Positions 19,374-60,812 of a stretch of 64,000 nt of DNA are shown in pieces. Position numbers and translations under genes: made by a program. This DNA comes from Aminobacterium colombiense DSM 12261. GTDB lineage: Bacteria; Synergistota; Synergistia; Synergistales; Aminobacteriaceae. Numbering within the stretch: position 1 is the first letter of the stretch; each line of letters starts with the position of its first letter. The stretch is from the NCBI RefSeq assembly GCF_000025885.1, contig NC_014011.1, positions 1,116,001 through 1,180,000 of the forward strand. Reading direction: 5' to 3'. The notes below the pieces were generated by a model. That model was given only the letters and a program-made list of their open reading frames with translations, made no database searches and was not told where the DNA came from.

Positions 19374-20030
19374 CTAAAGCGGATAAACCGTAACAGTTTC
19401 AACAACTTGGGCTCCAATGCCCCATCGCCAAAATACTGCACTCTCAACTTCCGTCACGTTGTACGGATAAACTGTAATTTCTTCACCAAAGAGGCTTGCC
19501 ATTGCAACTTTAGGAACCACACCCCGTACAGTAAGATATACATTCAACTCGTCGAGCCACGAACGAACGTTCTTGTACTCATCTATTAGTCGCTCTAAAA
19601 GCACATAGGTCTGCTCATCAAGTCCACGCTCGCTAAGCTCAAGAATCTCTACCTTGAATTTGTACGGCTCCCCACCGTATTCATACCATTCGGAAATAAC
19701 TCCACACATGGAGAGCATTTCGAAAATGCGAAGCAGCGCCGCTTTCGTTCCTTTCAGACGATGTATCTCAACAGCCCTTCGAACAAGATCTCTTTTCTCT
19801 TCAACCGAAACGGCCACCCCCGCACCCTCATCAAGGGTGATATGAAACTCCCACAGTAATAAATCTAGAATCGCTTCAGACAACTCGTCGATGCGCGGCA
19901 AGATGATGGTTTGAATCAAATGGGAATTAATATCGGCAAGTTGGCCATCTAACGCTAAAACCGCGGCTTCCACCTGAGGATCTTCAGCAATGCTTCCAGG
20001 GATAAGATCTTTCAACCCGGCACTAACCAT
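19374..20030 (-). CDS. Phage tail protein I (P2 gpI-like)
   Basis: 218 residues. The N-terminal pattern (LKDLIPGSIAEDPQVEAAVLALDGQLADIN) and LLLWEFHI match the P2 gpI baseplate family, which links the wedge to the fibre. The start overlaps the gpJ-like stop by 8 bases. Confidence 0.88.
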   Translation of the reverse strand: MVSAGLKDLIPGSIAEDPQVEAAVLALDGQLADINSHLIQTIILPRIDELSEAILDLLLWEFHITLDEGAGVAVSVEEKRDLVRRAVEIHRLKGTKAALLRIFEMLSMCGVISEWYEYGGEPYKFKVEILELSERGLDEQTYVLLERLIDEYKNVRSWLDELNVYLTVRGVVPKVAMASLFGEEITVYPYNVTEVESAVFWRWGIGAQVVETVTVYPL

Positions 20031-21132
20031 CTTCGAGCCCTCCGTAATTGATGGTCACGCTGTTTTCTTTAGCTACTTGCCACGCTTCTAACGCTGTATA
20101 TATAGGGTTTGACACTTCGACCCGCTTTGCCCCGGCATCCATCACACGCTTGATAAGCGCCGAGGGGTTAATATCTCTGCCCAATTTCGCTTTCTGCCAT
20201 GCAATATATTCCCCTACGGCAGTTGCCACCTGAGCCTGTATCGCAGAAATAGAGATAGCTTCTACGCGATCTATGAAATATGTGCAGTCAACGGAATAGG
20301 TAATTTGCTCCGGGGCTAAAACGGTCACCTGATCTGTCAGCGGTCGCACATCGTCAGCTGAGCAAATACTCAAAACCTCATCAAGTATTTCGGAACTGGG
20401 GAGTTCCCCTCCCTCCATCAACGGCCTTATTTCAACTTCTCCCGCAGCAGGAGATCTTACCGACACGTCAATTATTCCCTGGTGTGCAGTACGTGCCCAG
20501 AAATCATAGGCAAGTCGAGGCCCTGCAACAGAGTACCTTTCCATAGCTTGCCTTATACGCAATCTAAAATTATCATCTGATTCTTCATCAACACCACCCG
20601 TGGAAGCAGTTATATTTTCCACTTTTGAGATATACGGAAGAGGATCCACCAGTTTACTGATCTGCCCTATTGCAAAACCATTCCCGATTGAACCGCTCTG
20701 GGTACAGGTAACGACAGCGTCAACATACGTTGCTCCTGGGGTTATTTCGAGGGCTTCCTGCGTTGCGAAAAAGACACTGCCACCCGAAGTGACGCGAGTT
20801 CCCTGAGGTATAGAAACGGCGAATGTTTGAGCTATGGGCAACGAAAAACGGACTGTGGCCATTGACGGCTGTTCAGGAAGCCTCACCACCCCCTGCCTGT
20901 CACCCAAATGATCGAGATAATCTCCTGTAGAATAAGCCAGCAAATTTTGCTTCGCTGAAAAATCAATGATTACACGCTGTTGCGCTATAACAGCCGCCAC
21001 AGCCTCCAAGAAAAGTCTGACCGGATCCCCCTTTGCGAGAATCCGGCCTGCTGTTTGTTCATATTTCGCAAAAACCTCAGCCTCTACCTCGGCTGTAGAT
21101 TTTTCCGTAAAATCTATGTTAGGTAGTGTCAC
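20023..21132 (-). CDS. Baseplate wedge protein J (P2 gpJ-like)
   Basis: 369 residues. Hallmarks are the N-terminal TAEVEAEVFAKYEQ region, the beta-rich middle with SLPIAQTFAVSIPQGTRVTS and GSIGNG, and the ESDDNFRLRIRQAMER motif of the Baseplate_J family. It forms the baseplate periphery of the contractile tail. Overlaps its neighbours W (14 bases) and I (8 bases). Confidence 0.92.
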   Translation of the reverse strand: MTLPNIDFTEKSTAEVEAEVFAKYEQTAGRILAKGDPVRLFLEAVAAVIAQQRVIIDFSAKQNLLAYSTGDYLDHLGDRQGVVRLPEQPSMATVRFSLPIAQTFAVSIPQGTRVTSGGSVFFATQEALEITPGATYVDAVVTCTQSGSIGNGFAIGQISKLVDPLPYISKVENITASTGGVDEESDDNFRLRIRQAMERYSVAGPRLAYDFWARTAHQGIIDVSVRSPAAGEVEIRPLMEGGELPSSEILDEVLSICSADDVRPLTDQVTVLAPEQITYSVDCTYFIDRVEAISISAIQAQVATAVGEYIAWQKAKLGRDINPSALIKRVMDAGAKRVEVSNPIYTALEAWQVAKENSVTINYGGLEDG

Positions 21133-21439
21133 GAATTCTCACCTTCACTTTCGGAATTAGAATGCCGTCATAATGGTCGCTTTCAACGAAACCTACAAAC
21201 GTTACTTTCGCTCTGGGTTCAAACTTTTGAATTGCGCTAACAATTTCAGCTGACAACGCCGCCTGAGCCTTGGGTATTGGCTCGTCAAGCATGGTTGCAC
21301 TGAGTCCAAATTCGCGATCAAGTGGAACAGAATATTTCATCGTAGTGAGGATAGTACGAATGTTTTGTAAAACTTCTGCAACCTCCGTTTTAGGCCCAAA
21401 ATCAATTGCACCTTGTGCTCCGATCACCTCATATTCCAT
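21119..21439 (-). CDS. Baseplate protein W (gp25-like)
   Basis: 106 residues. The pattern VLQNIRTILTTMKYSVPLDREFGL is the conserved EPR-type core of the gpW/T4 gp25 family, which starts sheath polymerisation at the baseplate. It sits in the U-W-J-I order typical of P2-type tails. Confidence 0.9.
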   Translation of the reverse strand: MEYEVIGAQGAIDFGPKTEVAEVLQNIRTILTTMKYSVPLDREFGLSATMLDEPIPKAQAALSAEIVSAIQKFEPRAKVTFVGFVESDHYDGILIPKVKVRIRDTT

Positions 21440-21442
21440 TGT

Positions 21443-21832
21443 TTATTCCTCCACATATTCGCGTAAAGTCAAATCAACAGTAGCCCGAAGTAAATGTCCA
21501 TGATTATCAATTTGTGACCATGTTTCGTTTATGCTCTCTATAACAAATGTCCCCAACGGTCTTCCAGCTAAAATGAGAGGTGCATAAATGCCATCGTCTC
21601 TCATGTCGCGCAACCTACCTATTTCACCCCGTGGATTTACACCTAGAGAGGCCCTAAGAGAAATTGTCATCGTAACTGAATCTAAACCTGGCCCCATAAA
21701 CTCCAATACAGGCTTTTGGCCTGCCACTTCGTGCGTGCCAAATCGCGCATCACCTTGCCTTTGAAAGTTTTCAGGGGTTCTCACTTTATCGGCTGACGTT
21801 TCAAAAACCACATCTCCAAGGTAGCCTATCAT
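21443..21832 (-). CDS. Tail protein U-like (P2 gpU family)
   Basis: 129 residues. The start IGYLGDVVFETS, the FMGPGLDSVTMTISLRASLGVNP middle and GTFVIESINETWSQIDNHG match the P2 GpU family. In contractile phages this protein associates with the tail tube or its hub. It starts 6 bases after the PAAR gene. Confidence 0.85.
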   Translation of the reverse strand: MIGYLGDVVFETSADKVRTPENFQRQGDARFGTHEVAGQKPVLEFMGPGLDSVTMTISLRASLGVNPRGEIGRLRDMRDDGIYAPLILAGRPLGTFVIESINETWSQIDNHGHLLRATVDLTLREYVEE

Positions 21833-21838
21833 TTAGAG

Positions 21839-22132
21839 TTACCCCCCTGCAAAAACGTTATTTGATCCTATAGCAACGGAAGATCCACACGCTATAGGAT
21901 CTCCAACTCTTCCGGCTTCTTTGCCATTTATAAACACAGACGAACTACCAGACGCCAACACAGACGCATGGCACTCTGGAATATCAGGGCAACAATGCTC
22001 AGCCCAAGCATCGCCTTGTCTATGCCATGCTTTGCCATTAACAAAAACATTAGGAGATCCTTCAACCGAAGGCCGAGATGGCCATCAGCCATGGCCGGTA
22101 CAAACATCTCCTAACCTAGTTGCAGCAGGCAC
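21839..22132 (-). CDS. PAAR spike-tip protein with in-frame TGA at codon 16: candidate selenoprotein
   Basis: 97 residues if the TGA is read. The start is GTG with AAGGAGG seven bases upstream. The product begins MPAATRLGDVCTGHG, then TGA, then WPSRPSVEGSPNVFVNG. It continues with HRQGDAW, AEHCCPDIPECH, SVFINGKEAGRVGDP, ACGSSVAIGS and NNVFAGG. These are the repeated motifs of the PAAR family, which caps the membrane-piercing spike of contractile tails and binds a metal ion. As I recall the family, the residue after GHG is Cys, so TGA stands where Sec would replace Cys. The rest of the frame is open and has no decay. It lies between spike protein V and gpU with 12-base and 6-base gaps, the expected place. 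An ordinary nonsense mutation is the alternative; the hairpin just after the TGA and host selA/selB favour selenocysteine. Confidence 0.82.
22059..22087 (-). promoter_or_regulatory. SECIS-like hairpin directly after the in-frame TGA
   Basis: The TGA is 22087-22085. Twelve bases later CCUUC (22072-22068) and GAAGG (22063-22059) form a perfect 5-bp stem closed by GGUU. The loop starts 17 bases after the TGA. In E. coli fdhF the GGUCU loop of the SECIS starts 18 bases after its UGA, and SelB contacts the loop G and U. Pairing below this stem is weak, and I cannot assign a bulged U. Confidence 0.6.
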
Positions 22133-22144
22133 ATCTTCACCTCC

Positions 22145-22597
22145 TTAAGGGTTTAAATCAATTCGAGGTGCCTGAAGCGTTATATAACTTTCGCTCTCAA
22201 TTACGATATCTCCTGTGGAATGCACCGTCGTAGCTCCACTGCTACGATCATGCTCAATCCATGTACCATCCTCAAAATCTATGCGGCGTTTATTGGGGTC
22301 ACCGATCGTTGGCTTGTCTTTTGCGTTATACATAGCCCCTAGACAGAAACCTTGTTCCATACCATTGGGCAAAAAAACGCATAACACTTGCTCTCCAACA
22401 TCGGGTATAAAATAGTCTTTATTGCGCAAGGTCTGCCTCACTAGAACAGGTAAATCGTAGCTTACCATGCTGTCTTTATCACGGAAAAGCACTCGAACGG
22501 TGCCTTCTTCGGCATTAGCTGATGAAATCGTCCCTACACGCAAAATATTATTTAGTCGTTCCTCTATATCCATGAGGGCTTGATAATAGTCGAACAT
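22145..22597 (-). CDS. Baseplate spike protein V (P2 gpV-like)
   Basis: 150 residues. The OB-fold part has GTVRVLFRDKDSMVSYDLPVLV and VGEQVLCVFLPNG, followed by EDGTWIEHDRSSGATTVHS and a beta-helical tail. This is the trimeric central spike of a contractile tail. Its C-terminus lies next to the PAAR gene, whose product would cap it. Confidence 0.9.
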   Translation of the reverse strand: MFDYYQALMDIEERLNNILRVGTISSANAEEGTVRVLFRDKDSMVSYDLPVLVRQTLRNKDYFIPDVGEQVLCVFLPNGMEQGFCLGAMYNAKDKPTIGDPNKRRIDFEDGTWIEHDRSSGATTVHSTGDIVIESESYITLQAPRIDLNP

Positions 22598-23610
22598 TAG
22601 TACCCCTCCAACACCCGGTGAGCTTCCAAAGCAGTTAAATAGCCTCCCTGTTGATATGAATGCACTGCTTTGTCAATAAAATATTTACCGTCGAAATGCC
22701 CCCAGCCACTAAATTCAACATTGATACCTGCGACAATGCGCGGATCTCCACCTAACGTAATACTGCTCGTTGCCTGCTTTTTATTTTTTTTCCTAAGCTC
22801 TTTTTGTGCCAAATCCATAGCCTCGGCTAAAGATTCGACACGCTTATTTATCACCAGCGTCTGGCCTTCTTCAGCATCTGGAACGGTGTATGTATAAGTT
22901 TGTTCTTCTTTCTTTACAGAGTCATAGTATTTCACAGTACATTTAGCGAAAATATCGACTAAACTCGATGAAAAGGAGTAACGCTCTACATAGCTAAGTT
23001 CGCTTTTAATAACTAGAGCCGCGTCTTTTTGCTCATATGCCTGCTCTTCGAAAATAACCACTTTCTCATCTGTTACCTTTAATAAACATCCGGCTTCTTC
23101 GCAAAGTCTCTGAAGAAAAGCTAGGTCAGATTCATCTCGCTGATCGCGTCTCTCATATAAAGAATCAACTGCATCGTATAAAAGCTCAACCCTATTATTT
23201 TTAGCGATATCTCCAGCAATGCCTGAAAGAGAAATGTTTTCCCATGATCGATTTTTCTTCTCATTTTGCAATGAACTTTTCCCAGGAATTGAAATAGCTT
23301 TTATTTCAACAACCCCAGGTGGACCAGATAATGTAATCTCATCAATAGAAAAAGAGCCGCAAGGAAGTATCTTTTCATCACCAACGGCTCTCCAATTTTT
23401 TGTCTTAAAAGATACATTAATAGTTGCTCCTTTTTGAGGCATCCACCCTCCTCTCCAAAGCTCCTTTTTATCTTGTAGGATAATTGTTATATCGTCAGCT
23501 TTTCCATGCGCATTGTCCGTATATGTAATTGAGAGAAGGAAGGCAGAAATGTCTGCGCTAATATCAGTACCTTCGTATAATAGGGAAACCGCTGTCCGTC
23601 GACTCTTCAT
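22597..23610 (-). CDS. Tail hub protein D (P2 gpD-like)
   Basis: 337 residues from an ATG coupled as ATGA to the X gene, with AAGGAAGAG upstream. The family pattern (SLLYEGTDIS, SITYTDNAHGKADDITI, DLAFLQRLCEEAGCLLKV) matches late control gene D, the hub that holds the spike. Extra N-terminal residues from an upstream start are less likely. Confidence 0.9.
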   Translation of the reverse strand: MKSRRTAVSLLYEGTDISADISAFLLSITYTDNAHGKADDITIILQDKKELWRGGWMPQKGATINVSFKTKNWRAVGDEKILPCGSFSIDEITLSGPPGVVEIKAISIPGKSSLQNEKKNRSWENISLSGIAGDIAKNNRVELLYDAVDSLYERRDQRDESDLAFLQRLCEEAGCLLKVTDEKVVIFEEQAYEQKDAALVIKSELSYVERYSFSSSLVDIFAKCTVKYYDSVKKEEQTYTYTVPDAEEGQTLVINKRVESLAEAMDLAQKELRKKNKKQATSSITLGGDPRIVAGINVEFSGWGHFDGKYFIDKAVHSYQQGGYLTALEAHRVLEGY

Positions 23611-23825
23611 AAAAGTCTCTTCCTTTTCCAAGGAGGCATAGAGTCTGGCAACCTGTATTTTTTACTGACGTCAGGTATTTTGATATCTACCCCCTCACTA
23701 AAAAAAACTGTTTCTCTATGTTGGGGATTAGCTTCGATAATATCTGACATAAAATGCTCGTCCCCACATGTCTTTAAGGCAATGAGGTCCCATGTGTCAC
23801 CCTGAACCGTCTTGTATTTAGACAT
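23607..23825 (-). CDS. Tail protein X (LysM-like)
   Basis: 72 residues. The N-terminal half, [20 protein letters not shown], is the LysM-like signature of P2 gpX; it lies between tape measure and D. In contractile tails this protein binds peptidoglycan or packs at the baseplate. It overlaps the tape-measure stop by 8 bases. Confidence 0.9.
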
Positions 23826-26250
23826 AACTTAGCCTCCTCTCGTTATCAAACATCTTTCGCATCTTTTCAAGTAAATCGTCGTTACCAGAGGCAACAGCTC
23901 TTTCAACATCTTGCCGGGTGTCTCGCGTTTCACTCGTTGAGATACGAATGACAGGCGAATAGTTTATCGTTATGTTGTTATGAGATCCTCCATCGCGCAT
24001 TGTCGGTGCTGATGCCGCATCCCCTAAAAAACCTTTCATGCTATCGCTGAATGAACGGCCAAGTGTTGCTTCTAATGGGGTGCTCAAGGTGCTTTGAGGA
24101 ACAGACCTGGCACCCTGGGCTAGTGTTTTCATTATCGCTTGCCCAGATTCCGTTAGGTGAGATAAAGGTCCTTCCTTAGCGTCGGAAAATGGCAGAAGCT
24201 TCCGGACACGAGAAAGCACCCCTTTAACAGCTTCGACCGGCGCTGAGGCCGCGCTCTTTACGCCTGCGACAAAAGTCTGTATCAAGGCCCTTCCAGACTC
24301 AGATAGGTCAAAGTTGAAAATACTAAGGATTTTTGCTGGGATTGATTTTATGAAACTTACAAGAGCTGCACATTTTTCTCTTATACCATTTGCAAAAGCT
24401 CCAAACTTAGCGGCTATGACATCCCAGTTTTTATATAAGATGACCCCAGCAGCTACTAACGCAGTAACACCCATAATCAACAAGCCTATTGGATTTGCAT
24501 TCATCGCCGCATTCAATAACCACTGGGCGCCTGACCAAGCTTTAGTAGCAATAGTAACTAGCTTCATCTTAACCTGAGATGAGGTTAAAAGAGCTTGAAG
24601 AGTCTGCAATGCTAGTTTCCCCTGTAAGAAACCTCCGTACAAAAGAGACCAAGCATAAGAAGTGCCTATAGTAATAATTCGTAATGCCATGAGCCCCGCA
24701 ACCAGGCCCACAACAACTTTAGTAAGGGTAGGAAATTTTTCTGCCCCCATAGAAACAAACGAAACAACAGTAGCAGCTCTAGATGCCAAAGCTGCTATTG
24801 TCGGTAAAAGAGTATTTCCAACAGAAATTGAAATAGACTCCATAGCAGATCTAAATTTTGTTATAGCCCCCTTGGCATTGCTAGTAAATGTTTTTGCCAT
24901 CTTTTGCGCCGCGCCTTCTGCGTTTTGAATTTGCAAGATATATTCATCCAAGGCTCCGGCTCCGGTCGATGATTGTTTAATAAGCTCTGTCATGCCAGCG
25001 ACTGCTTCCTGACCAAATAAAGTAGCTATAAAAGCAGCTCTCTGAGCACTCCCCATCCCTTCTGTTTTTTGTGCAATATCTTTCAAAATAGCCGGGAGTG
25101 ATCGCAAATTCCCCTGAGCATCCATTGTCGATAGGCCAAGTGATTCCAATGCATCAGACGCTTCTTTTGATGGTTTTGCGATCTTTACAATAGCTGATCT
25201 TAGCGTTGTTCCGGCTTGCGACCCCTGAATACCAACGTTTCCGAGCAGTCCTACCATCGCCGAAGATTCTTCCATAGAGATTCCCATAGCAGAAGCAACT
25301 GGAGCTATGTATTTCATAGCATCGCCTAGTTGGATAATGTTAGTGTTTGATGTTGTGGCTGTTTTCGCTAAAACATCGCCCACTCGACCCATTTCTTTTG
25401 CCTTAAGACTAAATCCTGACAATATGTTTGATGCGATATCAGCAGTTTGCGCTAAATCGAGTTGGCCTGCAGAAGCCAAATCCAGCATACCAGGCATGGC
25501 TGCTAATACTTCATTTACCTTGAATCCTGCCATGCCTAAAAATTTCATGCCCTCGCCAGCTTGAGATGCAGAAAAAACAGTATCCCGCCCTAACCGTTTA
25601 GCCTCAACACTAAGAGCCTGCATTTCCTGGGCGGATGCATCCATAATGCCTCCCACCTCAGACATGGTAGCCTCAAAATTCATCGCGACACGCACAGGTG
25701 CTCCTACTGCAATTGCCATTGCCGTAGCGTCAAAAAGCTGACCTCGAAGTTTTGATGTTCTTTCACGGTTTGCTTCTATTGCTCCCCTTGTGGCTTGGAG
25801 GTTTTTTTGTGCCCGAGTAGCCTTCTCTATTTGAGCCGCTAGTTTAGCGGTATCTGCGCTCAAGTTCTTTGTAGATATTCCAGCAGCTTTCATAGATTCA
25901 GCCGAGCACTTAAAATCTTCTTTCTGCCCTTTAAGCTTTGTACTTAATTCAGAAACCTTTTTTTTCGCCCGTTCATAATCTTGCGTGAGTGCCTTGCTAG
26001 GGTTTTGGGTGTTTTTTATTTCGCGTGCGAGACGCTCTAAATCTGCCTTCGCATTACGAAATTGCAAAGAGGTTTCTGTCACCTGAGATCCAAGCTTTTT
26101 AAAGTTACCTATTTCCGCTTGAACCTTGTTAAGAACAGAAACCTCTTTGTTAAGATTTTGCAAAGCCCCAGTTGCTGTCAGCATAGACTTATTAAACGAG
26201 CTTTTTAGCTTCCCATCTAACTGAAAAGCTAACTCATAAATTTTTGCCAT
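23818..26250 (-). CDS. Tail tape measure protein
   Basis: 810 residues. The N-terminal 170 residues are coiled coil. The centre carries the TP901-type core ([56 protein letters not shown]). It is followed by hydrophobic segments ([20 protein letters not shown]). Its length sets tail length and it exits the tube at injection. It starts 5 bases after the E' stop. Confidence 0.93.
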
Positions 26251-26254
26251 GCTA

Positions 26255-26682
26255 TCACACCCTTGGCAGTGCTTTTTTTAATGATTCAGCCCATGCTGGT
26301 AGTTCACGAAGGGGGACATTGAGCCAAAATGCTATAGAAGTTGAAGATGATATGGCAAGTTGAGTTACAATATCGCGGATCTGGTTGCTGGCGTTCTTGG
26401 CTAGTCCTGCATTAGCAAAAAATTCTGCACCTGCAATGTTATAGCCGTAAAATCCTTAGCTCCTAGAGAAAGGATGAGCTCAACTGGAACCTTCGCTGCC
26501 CTTGCTGCCACATAAGCCTGAAAAGCCTTTGATGTCTCTGCAACTCCAGCAGCATTACCCGTGGCCACAAACTCCCTCTCCGCCACAACAATATCATCAC
26601 CGGTTAGGGATTCTAGGGGAACATTGATATCTTTATATTCTTTCCCCTCAAATGTAAGAGGCTTATTCAATTCATGTTTCAT
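26255..26682 (-). CDS. E+E' fusion by -1 programmed frameshift
   Basis: The slippery heptamer T TTT TTG lies in the zero frame at 26422-26416, five codons before the E stop. A -1 shift gives ...[20 protein letters not shown]... and continues to TGA at 26255-26257. The extension ends [20 protein letters not shown], the pattern of P2 E'. In P2 the same heptamer drives the E/E' shift. The longer product is thought to bring tape measure and tube together. Confidence 0.85.
26401..26682 (-). CDS. Tail assembly chaperone E (zero-frame product)
   Basis: 93 residues from an ATG with AAGGAG nine bases upstream; a GTG two codons earlier sits too close to that site. The sequence ([27 protein letters not shown]) matches the P2 gpE / tail-assembly chaperone family. 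The stop TAG follows a slippery site, so the protein is made alone or as an E+E' fusion. Confidence 0.85.
   Translation of the reverse strand: MKHELNKPLTFEGKEYKDINVPLESLTGDDIVVAEREFVATGNAAGVAETSKAFQAYVAARAAKVPVELILSLGAKDFTAITLQVQNFLLMQD
26416..26422 (-). promoter_or_regulatory. Slippery heptamer TTTTTTG
   Basis: Reads T TTT TTG in the E frame, the classical -1 slippage site; after slipping, the next codon is GCT and the -1 frame stays open for about 55 codons. Confidence 0.85.
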
Positions 26683-26695
26683 ATTCACCCACTCC

Positions 26696-27220
26696 TTACA
26701 GACCTAAATCTTCTCTCACAGAAGCTAGGTAGTCTTCTTCATCTATTACACAAATATAGTTAAACTTATCGATTTCTATTCGAGGAACCCCGTCATACCA
26801 AAGCTTAAGGTATACGACTTCAAATTCAACACTAGAATCAGAAGTTGTTCCAACGTCAAACTTTCCCAAACCGATAGTTTTAGGAATACCTCTGATGGCT
26901 AACTTTATAGGTGTTGTTTTGTATTCTCCTGAGGCAGCATTATAAACCTGAACAGATCCACGTAAATCTAGCGCATGCGCTCTTTGTTTTGCTAGGGTAG
27001 TTGCTTTCTCTGTAAGAGTCCTCCAGTTTAAGGTAACGCCCATAGAGCCAAAGTGCCCGAGCACTGGTGAATCTACCTCTCCGGCAATGCCTGCGCCCTT
27101 AACAGTCTCTGTCATGGCTTCTAGCGATGGTAGTTCAACATCCGCAACGCCAAGTAAATCAATTGAACCTTCTAGATACACTCTAAAATTTATTAGTTTT
27201 TCAGGTACTGGGTTACTCAT
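26696..27220 (-). CDS. Major tail tube protein (P2 FII-like)
   Basis: 174 residues, the usual size. The pattern LINFRVYLEGSIDLLGVADVELPSLEAM and GSVQVYNAASGEYKTTPIKLAIRGIPKTIGLGKFD matches the FII family. It builds the inner tube beneath the sheath. AGGAGG lies before the ATG. Confidence 0.93.
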   Translation of the reverse strand: MSNPVPEKLINFRVYLEGSIDLLGVADVELPSLEAMTETVKGAGIAGEVDSPVLGHFGSMGVTLNWRTLTEKATTLAKQRAHALDLRGSVQVYNAASGEYKTTPIKLAIRGIPKTIGLGKFDVGTTSDSSVEFEVVYLKLWYDGVPRIEIDKFNYICVIDEEDYLASVREDLGL

Positions 27221-54130: not shown

Positions 54131-54153
54131 TGGTGGGCCTACCTGGACTCGAA
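54131..54153. repeat. Right attachment site (attR core) inside the tRNA gene
   Basis: Identical to 15055-15077. It covers the CCA end, acceptor strand and part of the T-arm of tRNA-Ile2, so the tRNA stays whole after integration. Confidence 0.92.
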
Positions 54154-54207
54154 CCAGGAACCTTCCGGTTATGAGCCGGTGGCTCTAGCCACTTGAGCTA
54201 TAGGCCC
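54131..54207 (-). tRNA. tRNA-Ile2 (anticodon CAT, C34 modified to lysidine)
   Basis: The acceptor stem GGGCCTA pairs with TAGGCCC, with encoded CCA. The anticodon arm reads CCGGC-TCATAAC-CGG-type with anticodon CAT. C4-G69 and C5-G68 pairs are those used by TilS, so this is isoleucine rather than elongator methionine. tRNA-Met remains a weaker option. Confidence 0.88.
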
Positions 54208-56659: not shown

Positions 56660-58600
56660 TTATTTTTGACTTTTTTGTTCCAGTTTATGAAGAAGCAAGA
56701 CTCGTTTCTCCCCCACTCGACGAGTATACCCCCTGGCATCCAAATACTCGAGAAGGGGAAGAACGAATTTTCTGCTGCTTCCAGTTATATCACGAACTGC
56801 AGCGATAGTGATGTCATCTTTGATCTCTTTAACAATTGTAATAAACTTCTCCTCTACATCTTTCGCCAAAACAAACTTTCCGCCAATAACGAAGGCCTCC
56901 CCCCGTTCCCGTAAATCCTTCAAGAAAAGAGAGAATTCCTTTTCTCCCATGGAAAGACCATGCTGCAGCTCATCTATAAGGGGCAGCTGAAATTCAAGGT
57001 TCCCGCAAAAAATCTTGAACTCGTCAAGCTTTTTAAAGAAAGCGCTGTCGTCCTGAGGAACAAAATCAGGCAAGCGCATCATGTTGCTATCAATAACAAA
57101 AATATTTTTCTGCGCCATGAAGTCGATCAACAAACGAGCCGTTTTTCTCTCTATACTTTTAAGGGGGCCAGTAAGTATATCGTCGATCATTGCGCCAGCC
57201 TGGTGAGGGCGTTCTTCGTGAAATGCTTTCAAGAAGGCAGCAATATCATGCTGGTAGTGGGCGAAGGTATCCTGAGACATATAGCAATCCACCCCCGAGG
57301 CCAGCAGAACTATCTTGTTATCCTTTTGCAGCTGACGAGCCATTTCGTCCACATCAGCGGGAAGTTCCTGCAAATCCACAAGGATATTTTCTCTGGAAAT
57401 GCTTCCATGGAAACGCACCAGAATTTCCATTCTTTCTTTTGGCCCCTTTGCGTCACGCAACTCTTCAAGACACTGTTTATAAGCACCTTTAGCCCCTTTC
57501 CCCTTGGGTTTTTTACCGTAAGCAAAGAGGATTCTTCCGCCGCCGATGGTTACCAGCGGACTGTAGAAACGAATGACAAATCGCTGATCTATGGTGGCCA
57601 CAACGCCTTCTTCCATAACCAATTGAGCAACAGCTGATTCCCCAGGTAAAAGAGACGTTTTATCAAAAAGTGAAACCCGGGCAATCACATCAGCCGTCCC
57701 AACATGAAGGCGTACCCGCTGCCAATGCTTTAAGGGTTCCGAAAAGGAGGTGAGAAGAGAAAGTTCAACATCGAAACATCTGGTCTCTCTGTAAACATCA
57801 CGGGCACAAACTACATCTCCACGAATCAGCTCATCTAAAGAAACGCCCGACAGACTCATGGCTACACGCTGGCCAGCCCAGGCAACATCCACAGTATGAC
57901 TGTGCACCTGTACACTTCGAACCCGTACATCCTGATCTGCGGGAAGAATTGAAACTTCCATCCCGGGCCCTACTTGCCCCTTATAGGCCGTACCGGTAAC
58001 GACCGTTCCAAAGCCTGAAATGGGAAAGGCCCTGTCTATGGGCATAAAAAAAGGTCCCCGCCTTGTACGAGGCTGAACCCTATCTATTAATTTAGCTAAT
58101 TCCTCCATAAGAAGGGGAATATTTTTATTTGTCACTGATGAAACGGGGACTACCACCTTCCCCTCAAGAAAAGTACCTTGCACAAAATCAGTAACGTCGG
58201 CAATAGCAAGCTCCAAAAGCTCTTCATCAACCAGATCAGCCTTAGAAATGACAATGACTCCGTCATGCACTCCAAGAAGATTGAGAATGGCCAAATGCTC
58301 TCGTGTCTGGGGCATAACTCCCTCATCTGCAGCCACAACAAGCATAACGGCATCAATGCCTGACGCGCCGGCCACCATTTGACGAATAAACTTCTCATGT
58401 CCTGGCACATCTACTATGCTCACAACGCGGCCATCATGAAGCTTAAGAGGGGCAAAGCCCAATTCTATGGTTATGCCTCTCTTTTTCTCTTCGTTCAGCC
58501 TATCACAACTTACCCCCGTCAGCGCCTTTACCAGAGTAGTCTTTCCGTGATCGATATGGCCGGCTGTCCCTAGAACGAGAGATATTTCCTTCTCATTCAC
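56660..58600 (-). CDS. selB: Selenocysteine-specific elongation factor SelB
   Basis: 646 residues. GTPase motifs are GHIDHGKT (14-21), RGITIELGF, DVPGHEKF and SKAD. EF-Tu-like beta domains follow (PIDRAFPISGFGTVVTGTAY). The last 250 residues are the winged-helix repeats that bind the SECIS hairpin. It delivers Sec-tRNA to UGA. It overlaps selA by 8 bases, so the two are co-translated. Confidence 0.97.
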   Translation of the reverse strand: MNEKEISLVLGTAGHIDHGKTTLVKALTGVSCDRLNEEKKRGITIELGFAPLKLHDGRVVSIVDVPGHEKFIRQMVAGASGIDAVMLVVAADEGVMPQTREHLAILNLLGVHDGVIVISKADLVDEELLELAIADVTDFVQGTFLEGKVVVPVSSVTNKNIPLLMEELAKLIDRVQPRTRRGPFFMPIDRAFPISGFGTVVTGTAYKGQVGPGMEVSILPADQDVRVRSVQVHSHTVDVAWAGQRVAMSLSGVSLDELIRGDVVCARDVYRETRCFDVELSLLTSFSEPLKHWQRVRLHVGTADVIARVSLFDKTSLLPGESAVAQLVMEEGVVATIDQRFVIRFYSPLVTIGGGRILFAYGKKPKGKGAKGAYKQCLEELRDAKGPKERMEILVRFHGSISRENILVDLQELPADVDEMARQLQKDNKIVLLASGVDCYMSQDTFAHYQHDIAAFLKAFHEERPHQAGAMIDDILTGPLKSIERKTARLLIDFMAQKNIFVIDSNMMRLPDFVPQDDSAFFKKLDEFKIFCGNLEFQLPLIDELQHGLSMGEKEFSLFLKDLRERGEAFVIGGKFVLAKDVEEKFITIVKEIKDDITIAAVRDITGSSRKFVLPLLEYLDARGYTRRVGEKRVLLLHKLEQKSQK

Positions 58601-60026
58601 CTTTCTTCACCTCCAGCAGCCACGCCAGCCCCTGAAGAATCCGCTCATCATCTTTGTCCATCAGAGTCCTCACATGAAAGATCAGAGAGTCTTCACTGGC
58701 TCCCGCAACTATAGGCATCTCTGCCTGACGCAACAGGGTCTGAAGAGTGCCGGCACTTCCAATGTGTTGAATTTTCAATGCCACCCCATATCCTTTAAGC
58801 CTGGTTACCGGGAAGGCCCCCCCGCCAACAGCATCGTTTACTTCGACCACGGCTGGCTCCAGATGGGGAAAGGTTTTTTTGATCTTACGGCGTAGAGCCT
58901 GGGCTTTTTTCCTGAGATCTTCCACCTTTAATGTAAGCATGCTCAATGTGGGAATTTCATTCCATCGCCCCTGCAAATACATTCGAAGAACTTTTTCAAA
59001 GGCGGCCAGCGTCATCTTGTCTACACGCAACGCACGCAAAAGAGGATAGGTGCGAAGTCTGTCAATGAGGCTTTTTTTGCCCACAACCGCTCCTATTTGG
59101 GGACCTCCCAGCATCTTGTCTCCTGAAAAGGTGACGAGATCCACTCCCGCCATAATACAATCCTTTACAGTGGGTTCTCCGCAAAGTCCCCACGGAGAAA
59201 GGTCTATAAGAACCCCGCTTCCCAAATCCTCCATAAAGATTACGTTTTTTTCCTGGGCCAAATGGCTCAGTTCTTCCCGAGGCACAGAGGAAGTGAACCC
59301 CTCGATTCTGAAGTTTGAAGGGTGCACCTTCAGTACCATGGATGTTTCATCTGTAAATGCCTGCCCATAGTCTTTCAGATGGGTACGGTTTGTAGCGCCA
59401 ACTTCTACTAACCTAGCCCCTGAAAAGGCCATAATATCCGGGATTCTGAAGGAACCACCTATCTCCACCAGTTCTCCCCGTGAAACAATAACTTCTTTTT
59501 CCCTTGCCAGAGCCGCCAGGCATAAAAGGACAGCTCCCGCATTATTATTCACAACAACAGCAGCTTCTGCGCCTGTAAACTGACAAAGGAGCCATTCTAC
59601 ATGGGCGTTACGCTGCCCTCTTTTGCCTTCTTTTAGATCAAACTCAAGGGTGTTATAGCGCGCCGCAACCTGACAAACTGCTTCCACGGCCTCAATAGGC
59701 AGGCAGGAGCGTCCCAGATTAGTGTGCACAACCACCCCAGTGGCGTTCACTATAGGCTGTAAACTGAGAGCAACTCGCCCTTTCAAAACAGCAATTGCTC
59801 TTTGATTAATTCCGTCTATGGATGTTTCTACTGCTTCGTCATGGAGAACGGCTTTTCGCGTTTCCGCCAAAATAGAAGAAAACACATTTTTAACCATTTC
59901 TCGCCCCAGCTGCTCCTCGTAAAAAAGAACCCATGGCTCACTCAGCAACTCGTCCATTGCGGGAAGATTTTTTAAAATTTTGTTCTTATTTGATTCCACC
60001 GCAGCTCCCTGCCTTCCTAATGGCAT
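58593..60026 (-). CDS. selA: L-seryl-tRNA(Sec) selenium transferase
   Basis: 477 residues. PLP enzyme that turns seryl-tRNA(Sec) into selenocysteyl-tRNA using selenophosphate. The lysine for PLP is K304 in TFSGDKMLGGPQIG. LQPIVNATGVVVHTNLGRS is another family signature. The start has AAAGG upstream. Divergent from yedF across 198 bases with no tRNA-Sec seen there. Confidence 0.97.
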   Translation of the reverse strand: MPLGRQGAAVESNKNKILKNLPAMDELLSEPWVLFYEEQLGREMVKNVFSSILAETRKAVLHDEAVETSIDGINQRAIAVLKGRVALSLQPIVNATGVVVHTNLGRSCLPIEAVEAVCQVAARYNTLEFDLKEGKRGQRNAHVEWLLCQFTGAEAAVVVNNNAGAVLLCLAALAREKEVIVSRGELVEIGGSFRIPDIMAFSGARLVEVGATNRTHLKDYGQAFTDETSMVLKVHPSNFRIEGFTSSVPREELSHLAQEKNVIFMEDLGSGVLIDLSPWGLCGEPTVKDCIMAGVDLVTFSGDKMLGGPQIGAVVGKKSLIDRLRTYPLLRALRVDKMTLAAFEKVLRMYLQGRWNEIPTLSMLTLKVEDLRKKAQALRRKIKKTFPHLEPAVVEVNDAVGGGAFPVTRLKGYGVALKIQHIGSAGTLQTLLRQAEMPIVAGASEDSLIFHVRTLMDKDDERILQGLAWLLEVKKGE

Positions 60027-60224
60027 CGTCTATGCCTTTCATCTATAAACTAGAAAAAAACAAGAGAATGGGATACATTATAATTATTATTCCTAAAAAC
60101 TGTATCGCTCTCTATATAGGCACTATTCTAACCGATAATGAAGATTAACCGCGCAAGGAGGCAAACATAAATTCATAAAGCTTCCCTTGCCGCAGCCCAT
60201 ATAACAAGAATGGAGGAAACAACA

Positions 60225-60812
60225 ATGACAAAGAAAATTGATGCCCGAGGAAAAGCATGCCCCCAGCCGGTCATGATGACTAAGGAGGCCGTAGAAAAAG
60301 GAGAAAGGGACCTTGTTATTTATCTTGACAACCCTGTAGCCGCATCGAATGTACAGCGTTTTCTTTCAAAACAGGGATTTTCCATGTCCCTCCGGGATGA
60401 AGAAGGCCACATAATTATAGAAGCCAAGGCACAGGGGAACCTTTCTCCTGTTCCTACCCTAGTACAAGCCCAGGACAACAAAACAGCGATTTTGATCACC
60501 CGAATCATTCTGGGCGGAAAAGACGCAGAGCTTGGAGAAGTTCTCATCAAAGGCTTTTTAGGAACTCTTGCCCAGCTCGAAGTTCCACCTGCATCCATAG
60601 CCCTTATGAACGAAGGCGTTAAGCTTGCCAACAAAGGAACACCCACATGCGAGCACCTTCAAGAAATAGCAGCAAAGGGAACGACAGTGCTCGTGTGCGG
60701 CACATGTACCAATCATTTTGGAATAACGGATAACGTTGGCGTAGGCACTATTTCAAACATGTTTGAAATCACTGACACTCTGCTTAAAGCCGCAAAAGTA
60801 ATATCCTTTTAG
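60225..60812 (+). CDS. yedF: Selenium metabolism protein YedF
   Basis: 195 residues from an ATG with GGAGG eight bases upstream. The TusA-like domain (IDARGKACPQPVMMTKEA, Cys12) is followed by a DsrE-like domain with VLVCGTCTNHFGI. This two-domain form occurs in selenium-using bacteria next to sel genes. It probably handles reactive selenium or sulfur; the exact reaction is unknown. It is divergent from selA. Confidence 0.92.
   Translation: MTKKIDARGKACPQPVMMTKEAVEKGERDLVIYLDNPVAASNVQRFLSKQGFSMSLRDEEGHIIIEAKAQGNLSPVPTLVQAQDNKTAILITRIILGGKDAELGEVLIKGFLGTLAQLEVPPASIALMNEGVKLANKGTPTCEHLQEIAAKGTTVLVCGTCTNHFGITDNVGVGTISNMFEITDTLLKAAKVISF

Follow-up and report, generated by a model that had tools for sequence, protein, structure and literature searches.

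A prophage spike-tip gene of Aminobacterium colombiense that is very probably a selenoprotein gene

The PAAR gene of a contractile-tail prophage in Aminobacterium colombiense DSM 12261 is, as judged from comparison with its homologues, very probably a selenoprotein gene, in which the UGA of codon 16 is decoded as selenocysteine (Sec) by the host. The gene occupies positions 21839-22132 on the minus strand of the window, which is the whole stretch of 64,000 nucleotides that was analysed; it begins with GTG, carries an in-frame TGA as codon 16 (22085-22087, minus strand, the next base being 22084) and ends with TAA. This candidate Sec codon aligns with a conserved cysteine, Cys16, and reading it as U yields a protein of 97 residues, VPAATRLGDVCTGHGUWPSRPSVEGSPNVFVNGKAWHRQGD...CGSSVAIGSNNVFAGG. 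A ribosome-binding site, AAGGAGG, lies 5' of the GTG start at approximately 22137-22147 on the same strand, and apart from the in-frame UGA the gene is intact. According to the mechanism that we propose, SelA, SelB and tRNA-Sec of the host would read UGA16 as Sec, and a hairpin starting 12 nt downstream would direct the insertion, its GGU loop being presented at a distance of 17 nt. Sec would then take the place of one member of a Cys pair, 16/48, beside the metal-binding residues at the membrane-piercing tip of the spike, where a selenenyl-sulfide (Se-S) bond might staple the tip; under anaerobic, strongly reducing conditions such a bond would form more easily than a disulfide. When selenium is absent, translation would end after 15 residues.

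The 97-residue protein matches the Pfam model PAAR_motif (PF05488) at 2.3e-19 with 69.8 bits, against a cut-off of 27, and PHROG 281 at 7.7e-37. Its AlphaFold2 model (pLDDT 97.9) resembles gp5.4 of phage T4 (4ku0) with a TM-score of 0.91, and further fold matches were P1 UpfC (9vyi), c1882 (4jiw) and VCA0105 (4jiv), with TM-scores ranging overall from 0.86 to 0.92. With the T6SS PAAR equivalog NF033420, the protein scored 86.9 bits, below the curated cut-off of 124, and the gene sits in the tail operon of a prophage, not in a T6SS. The minus strand of this operon encodes a gpD-like baseplate hub (22597-23631; PF05954, 4.1e-12), the gpV-like spike or baseplate assembly protein V (22145-22597; TIGR01644, 7e-19, over the cut-off), the PAAR protein, a gpU-like tail protein (21443-21832; PF06995, 2.4e-27), a gp25/gpW-like baseplate wedge protein (21119-21439; PF04965, 4.8e-8) and a Baseplate J-like protein (20023-21132; PF04865, 1.9e-57). 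Judged by ORF lists and resemblance to the window proteins, the order hub, gpV, UGA-containing PAAR, gpU and gp25 recurs in L043, L044 and L074. The prophage also has sheath, terminase and integrase genes and adjoins a tRNA-Met gene (54131-54207); an Rfam scan of the whole window returned tRNAs alone at the gathering threshold. On the minus strand at 26250-26700, two overlapping frames 5' of the tape measure gene resemble the gpE/gpE' tail chaperone pair with its programmed frameshift.

In the host genome, which is a single contig of 1,980,592 bases, SelA, SelB and a tRNA-Sec with anticodon UCA were all found. The genes selB (56660-58600, minus strand; TIGR00475, 4.3e-108) and selA (58593-60026, minus strand; TIGR00474, 4e-172) both score over their cut-offs and lie in the window outside the prophage, while tRNA-Sec is encoded elsewhere in the genome. 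The GrdB gene of this genome contains an in-frame UGA. Together with the gene of a YedF-like selenium protein, selB and selA occupy 56660-60812, about 2.5 kb past the tRNA-Met that borders the prophage. TGA is the ordinary stop of 7 of the 32 genes in the window, so the genetic code is not altered; other window genes with an in-frame TGA and a long reading on both sides were rejected as unsupported chance cases. The Synergistetes have been described as a selenoprotein-rich phylum (PMC5029168).

For the comparison across genomes, 252 distinct PAAR homologues were assembled from whole genomes and viral contigs, part of them retrieved by patterns that required UGA at position 16. Thirteen of these genes contain 14 in-frame stops, all of them TGA and none TAA or TAG, and all 14 align with Cys columns: eleven at column 16, one at 48 (L042) and two at 54 (L041 and L062, of which L062 has UGA at both 16 and 54). 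A scan of the phylum that used no pattern found five genomes with an internal TGA in a PAAR gene, all at Cys sites, and an ordinary protein search yielded the UGA homologue L279. The flanks of the UGA are conserved on both sides in the eleven distinct UGA16 proteins, whose genes were found not only in further Synergistota but also in several viral contigs and a MAG of the Bacillota (L074). The PAAR gene with two UGA codons (L062, 776-1048; L336, on the 275-kb viral contig IMGVR_UViG_3300028886_000036) has them at Cys16 and Cys54, one per Cys pair; a weak tRNA-Sec match in the 275-kb contig turned out to be tRNA-Leu, and a code with TGA as sense codon was rejected there, the neighbouring genes being open without internal TGA. 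The genomes of L041 (996-1295, G067; UGA at column 54) and L042 (2127-2414, G020; UGA at column 48) both contain SelB and tRNA-Sec. In seven viral records, no phage-encoded tRNA-Sec scored over the cut-off. A DNA pattern scan of genome contigs returned 49 stretches, of which that in L074 alone was a PAAR gene, the others being chance matches.

The hairpin of the window gene (22059-22072, minus strand) follows the UGA in the order TGA UGGCCAUCUCGG CCUUC GGUU GAAGG. Its geometry was as the sequence-only reading had described it, with CCTTC (22072-22068) and GAAGG (22063-22059) forming a 5-bp stem that begins 12 nt after the TGA and the GGTT loop (22064-22067) beginning 17 nt after it. The RNA of 22073-22046 folds into this hairpin alone (-5.9 kcal/mol, 93% of the ensemble), and the hairpin by itself has -4.6 kcal/mol, with a z-score of -4.0 against shuffles. 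The folding expected from the letters was obtained for this region, but not for the naked 45-nt RNA from the UGA onwards, which prefers a competing fold of GGCC, nt 2-5 pairing with nt 11-14, at -10.9. A ribosome with UGA in its A site would cover about the first 11 nt downstream and make the GGCC fold unavailable; the CCUUC/GAAGG hairpin would win only with these nucleotides held by the ribosome. Because of the GGCC alternative, the window gene gains nothing from a most-stable-fold statistic over the whole post-UGA region (p 0.40 when compared with synonymous variants), and the informative tests are those of the ribosome-excluded region and of the fixed register. With the peptide fixed and the codons drawn synonymously, a stem of at least 5 bp arose at the window register in 36% of the draws, and the energy of the window hairpin was not unusual among synonymous variants (p 0.28). 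As the stem owes much to the peptide itself, we do not claim significance for the window hairpin alone.

The earlier claim that such a hairpin is not expected by chance is overstated for the window gene taken singly, and its significance derives from the homologues. When these were aligned on codon 16, nine of ten distinct UGA16 sequences and none of 241 non-UGA homologues, including 173 with Cys, had at least 5 bp closing a 4-nt loop that starts at +17 precisely (Fisher 1e-15, a value uncorrected for kinship of the sequences), and no other register approached +17. The sequence-only reading had named UGA homologues without the hairpin, or an equally frequent stem in Cys homologues, as observations that would speak against it. 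Neither occurred, since nine of the ten UGA16 sequences have the hairpin in the same register, L062 being the exception, and none of the 173 Cys homologues does. In L062, no hairpin follows UGA16, but the second UGA (54) is followed by a strong one whose loop is AGGU; in L041, a hairpin with a GGC loop lies 21 nt 3' of the UGA. For the nine UGA sequences, RNAalifold predicted the same 5-bp hairpin and no other (-7.16), and all 45 base-pair cells (100%) are kept, compared with 37.9% in 28 Cys homologues. Six of their loops read GGU(U/C), two GGCG and one AGUG, and in L015 all five pairs are kept despite a change of the peptide from PSVEG to SSVGG. Compensatory changes, which had been proposed as a check, were seen at one pair that varies on both sides (18-27; C-G in four sequences, U-A in three, U-G in two), but 56 of 500 shuffles reached the same covariation score, so that covariation among the UGA homologues is modest. 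Given the peptide, 13-36% of synonymous draws produce the stem, and selection is therefore visible mainly through its repetition over homologues, which are partly related to each other. The nearest Cys relative, L341 (3043-3087), keeps PSVE and a GGUC loop with two pairs broken, and in L028 (PAAR gene at 1501-1788), which codes for Cys and groups as sister to the UGA-bearing L035 and L059 (L035/L059), one pair is broken. Both look like hairpins decaying after Cys took over from Sec, and SECIS-like remnants in Cys genes are known from other families (PMC1794560).

Measured against the bSECISearch model (PMC13188914), which demands an apical loop of 3-9 nt, an upper stem of 4-16 bp, G in loop position 1 or 2, 16-37 nt from UGA to loop and a minimum free energy of at most -7.5 kcal/mol, the window hairpin lies within the limits for loop (4 nt, GGUU with its G), stem (5 bp) and spacing (17 nt), but its -4.6 (alone) to -5.9 kcal/mol (with flank) misses the energy threshold. 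Among the homologue hairpins, those of L279, L015, L074, L035, L059 and L416 reach -7.5, whereas L115 and L167 fall short. We suggest that the window hairpin works like a bSECIS, although it falls outside strict bSECISearch membership.

What Sec might contribute to the spike tip can be approached through the residues around it. The metal-site residues of the family are nearly invariant, with H14 in 248, H46 and H55 in all and C82 in 231 of 249 sequences, and residue matching via alignments places them on the zinc site of three His and one Cys known in VCA0105, c1882 and gp5.4 (PMC10715212). Cys16 and Cys48 occur together in 180 of 249 sequences, with Sec counted as Cys, and Cys16 without Cys48 in none, while Cys47 and Cys54 are both present in 121 of 249. 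The covariation is strong within the pairs (Fisher 4e-47 for 16/48 and 7e-66 for 47/54), whereas the crosswise combinations are independent, and in the AlphaFold2 model residues 47 and 54 lie on adjacent strands (42-48 and 53-59). In L021, L030, L034, L027 and others, Cys16 is usually lost jointly with Cys48 (D/N, S/N, S/L). Each UGA substitutes exactly one partner of a Cys pair, and this, together with the pairwise covariation, favours an Se-S staple beside the metal as the role of Sec, which we propose tentatively, at a little short of an even chance. It is also conceivable, with a probability somewhat under one half, that Sec is decoded but serves to bind a metal, to sense redox state or to make virion production conditional on selenium: position 16 follows the metal-site His14 at a distance of two residues, extra Cys residues serve zinc binding in the PAAR protein of EAEC (PMC10715212), and the gene ends early without Sec. 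However, three His and one Cys are already conserved as the metal site, as in VCA0105, c1882 and gp5.4, and columns 16 and 48 change jointly, as a bonded pair would. Extending the staple to the wider group, phages of selenium-using anaerobes may have made the spike tip a selenoprotein more than once, with Sec in one or both of the Cys pairs beside the metal site (16-48, 47-54), Se-S cross-links making the tip harder where the habitat is reducing, and virions dependent on host selenium for their assembly; to this broader proposal we likewise assign not quite an even probability.

A decayed prophage gene or a sequencing error, by which a Cys codon became TGA and the PAAR protein died, is very unlikely, although TGC or TGT turns into TGA by one mutation and decay is frequent in prophage genes. 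The same codon is shared by independent genomes at 55 to 99% identity, including two complete single-contig genomes (that of the window and G031); the UGA16 gene L015 lies in a complete genome of 2,427,830 bases. If the window gene is given a Cys codon at 16, just 3 of its 34 one-step nonsense mutations hit that codon. The homologues show neither TAA nor TAG and no further stops. Codons 3' of the UGA are under purifying selection, with dN/dS of about 0.06 for L011/L015 and L167/L074 and of 0.24 for L035/L059, the +17 stem is confined to UGA homologues, and neighbouring genes, start codon and ribosome-binding site are all intact. Resolution is poor in the tree built from 97 PAAR columns; its best topology requires seven changes for UGA16, and the starred branches force at least two, the UGA sequences being few and partly related.

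Readthrough of another kind, in which near-cognate tRNAs misread UGA as Trp or Cys and which might serve to keep expression deliberately low, is similarly improbable. UGA is the leakiest stop codon, and with one tip copy per particle a low level could suffice, but plain readthrough predicts neither UGA at Cys columns only and, for known host genomes, in hosts with SelB and tRNA-Sec, nor a GGU-loop hairpin at SECIS distance that is linked to UGA. SelB and tRNA-Sec scored over the cut-off in all six host genomes with a UGA-containing PAAR gene, and among PAAR-bearing Synergistota such genes occur in 5 of 23 genomes with SelB and in none of 16 without it (p about 0.06), an association across the phylum that is no more than suggestive. 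A functional 15-residue peptide or a restart past the UGA, for which the strong ribosome-binding site and start codon upstream might speak, has a negligible probability, as no restart ORF of at least 60 residues follows and the near-invariant H14, H46, H55 and C82 lie on both sides of the UGA.

The principle of Sec decoding is the ordinary one here; the unexpected part is the protein, the tip of a phage spike. A search of the open-access literature, with supplements and the work of Haft and co-workers (2023, 2025) outside its scope, returned no report that links PAAR or phage with selenoproteins or selenocysteine, nor does either PAAR or phage appear in a review of prokaryotic selenoproteins from 2026. 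For Aminobacterium sp. MB27-C1, the deep-Sep study lists 13 known selenoprotein genes and no new one, its main text being silent on PAAR, and no selenoprotein-specific PAAR model in NCBIfam (June 2026) matches the window protein. As far as the searched literature shows, a Sec-containing structural part of a phage is unreported. Known bacterial selenoproteins are mostly cellular redox enzymes. If true, Sec in the spike tip would be a structural, probably non-catalytic use that is spread by phages and makes phage particles directly dependent on host selenium. Gene callers would then truncate or miss the UGA-containing PAAR gene of genomes like this one, an error that can be put right, and as cultured hosts with complete genomes exist, the Sec claim is directly testable.

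Like the bSECIS elements of E. coli fdhF and of GrdB in the same genome, the window hairpin is a hairpin in the coding sequence just 3' of a UGA with a G-rich GGU loop; in GrdB, the hairpin CGUUGC-GGU-GCAACG presents its loop 18 nt after the UGA. The window hairpin differs from both by its short 5-bp stem, its weak energy and the rival fold in naked RNA. Viral genes that use host Sec decoding are known from poxviruses, in the form of glutathione peroxidase; this enzyme of an animal virus depends on a eukaryotic SECIS and is unrelated to PAAR, so that host Sec decoding is what the two have in common. The known selenoproteins of Synergistota (PMC5029168) share with the UGA-containing PAAR the hosts, the SelA/SelB/tRNA-Sec machinery and the replacement of a conserved Cys by Sec, but their families are mostly host enzymes, whereas the PAAR protein is a structural protein of a phage. 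With the known PAAR tips, namely gp5.4 of T4, UpfC of P1 and the T6SS proteins VCA0105 and c1882, the window protein shares the fold and the conserved His and Cys residues of the metal site, and its gene has the position of known PAAR tips between gpV and gpU/gpW of the tail operon. In the alignments, gp5.4, VCA0105, c1882 and UpfC are without the 16/48 Cys pair, whereas residue 16 of the window protein is encoded by UGA.
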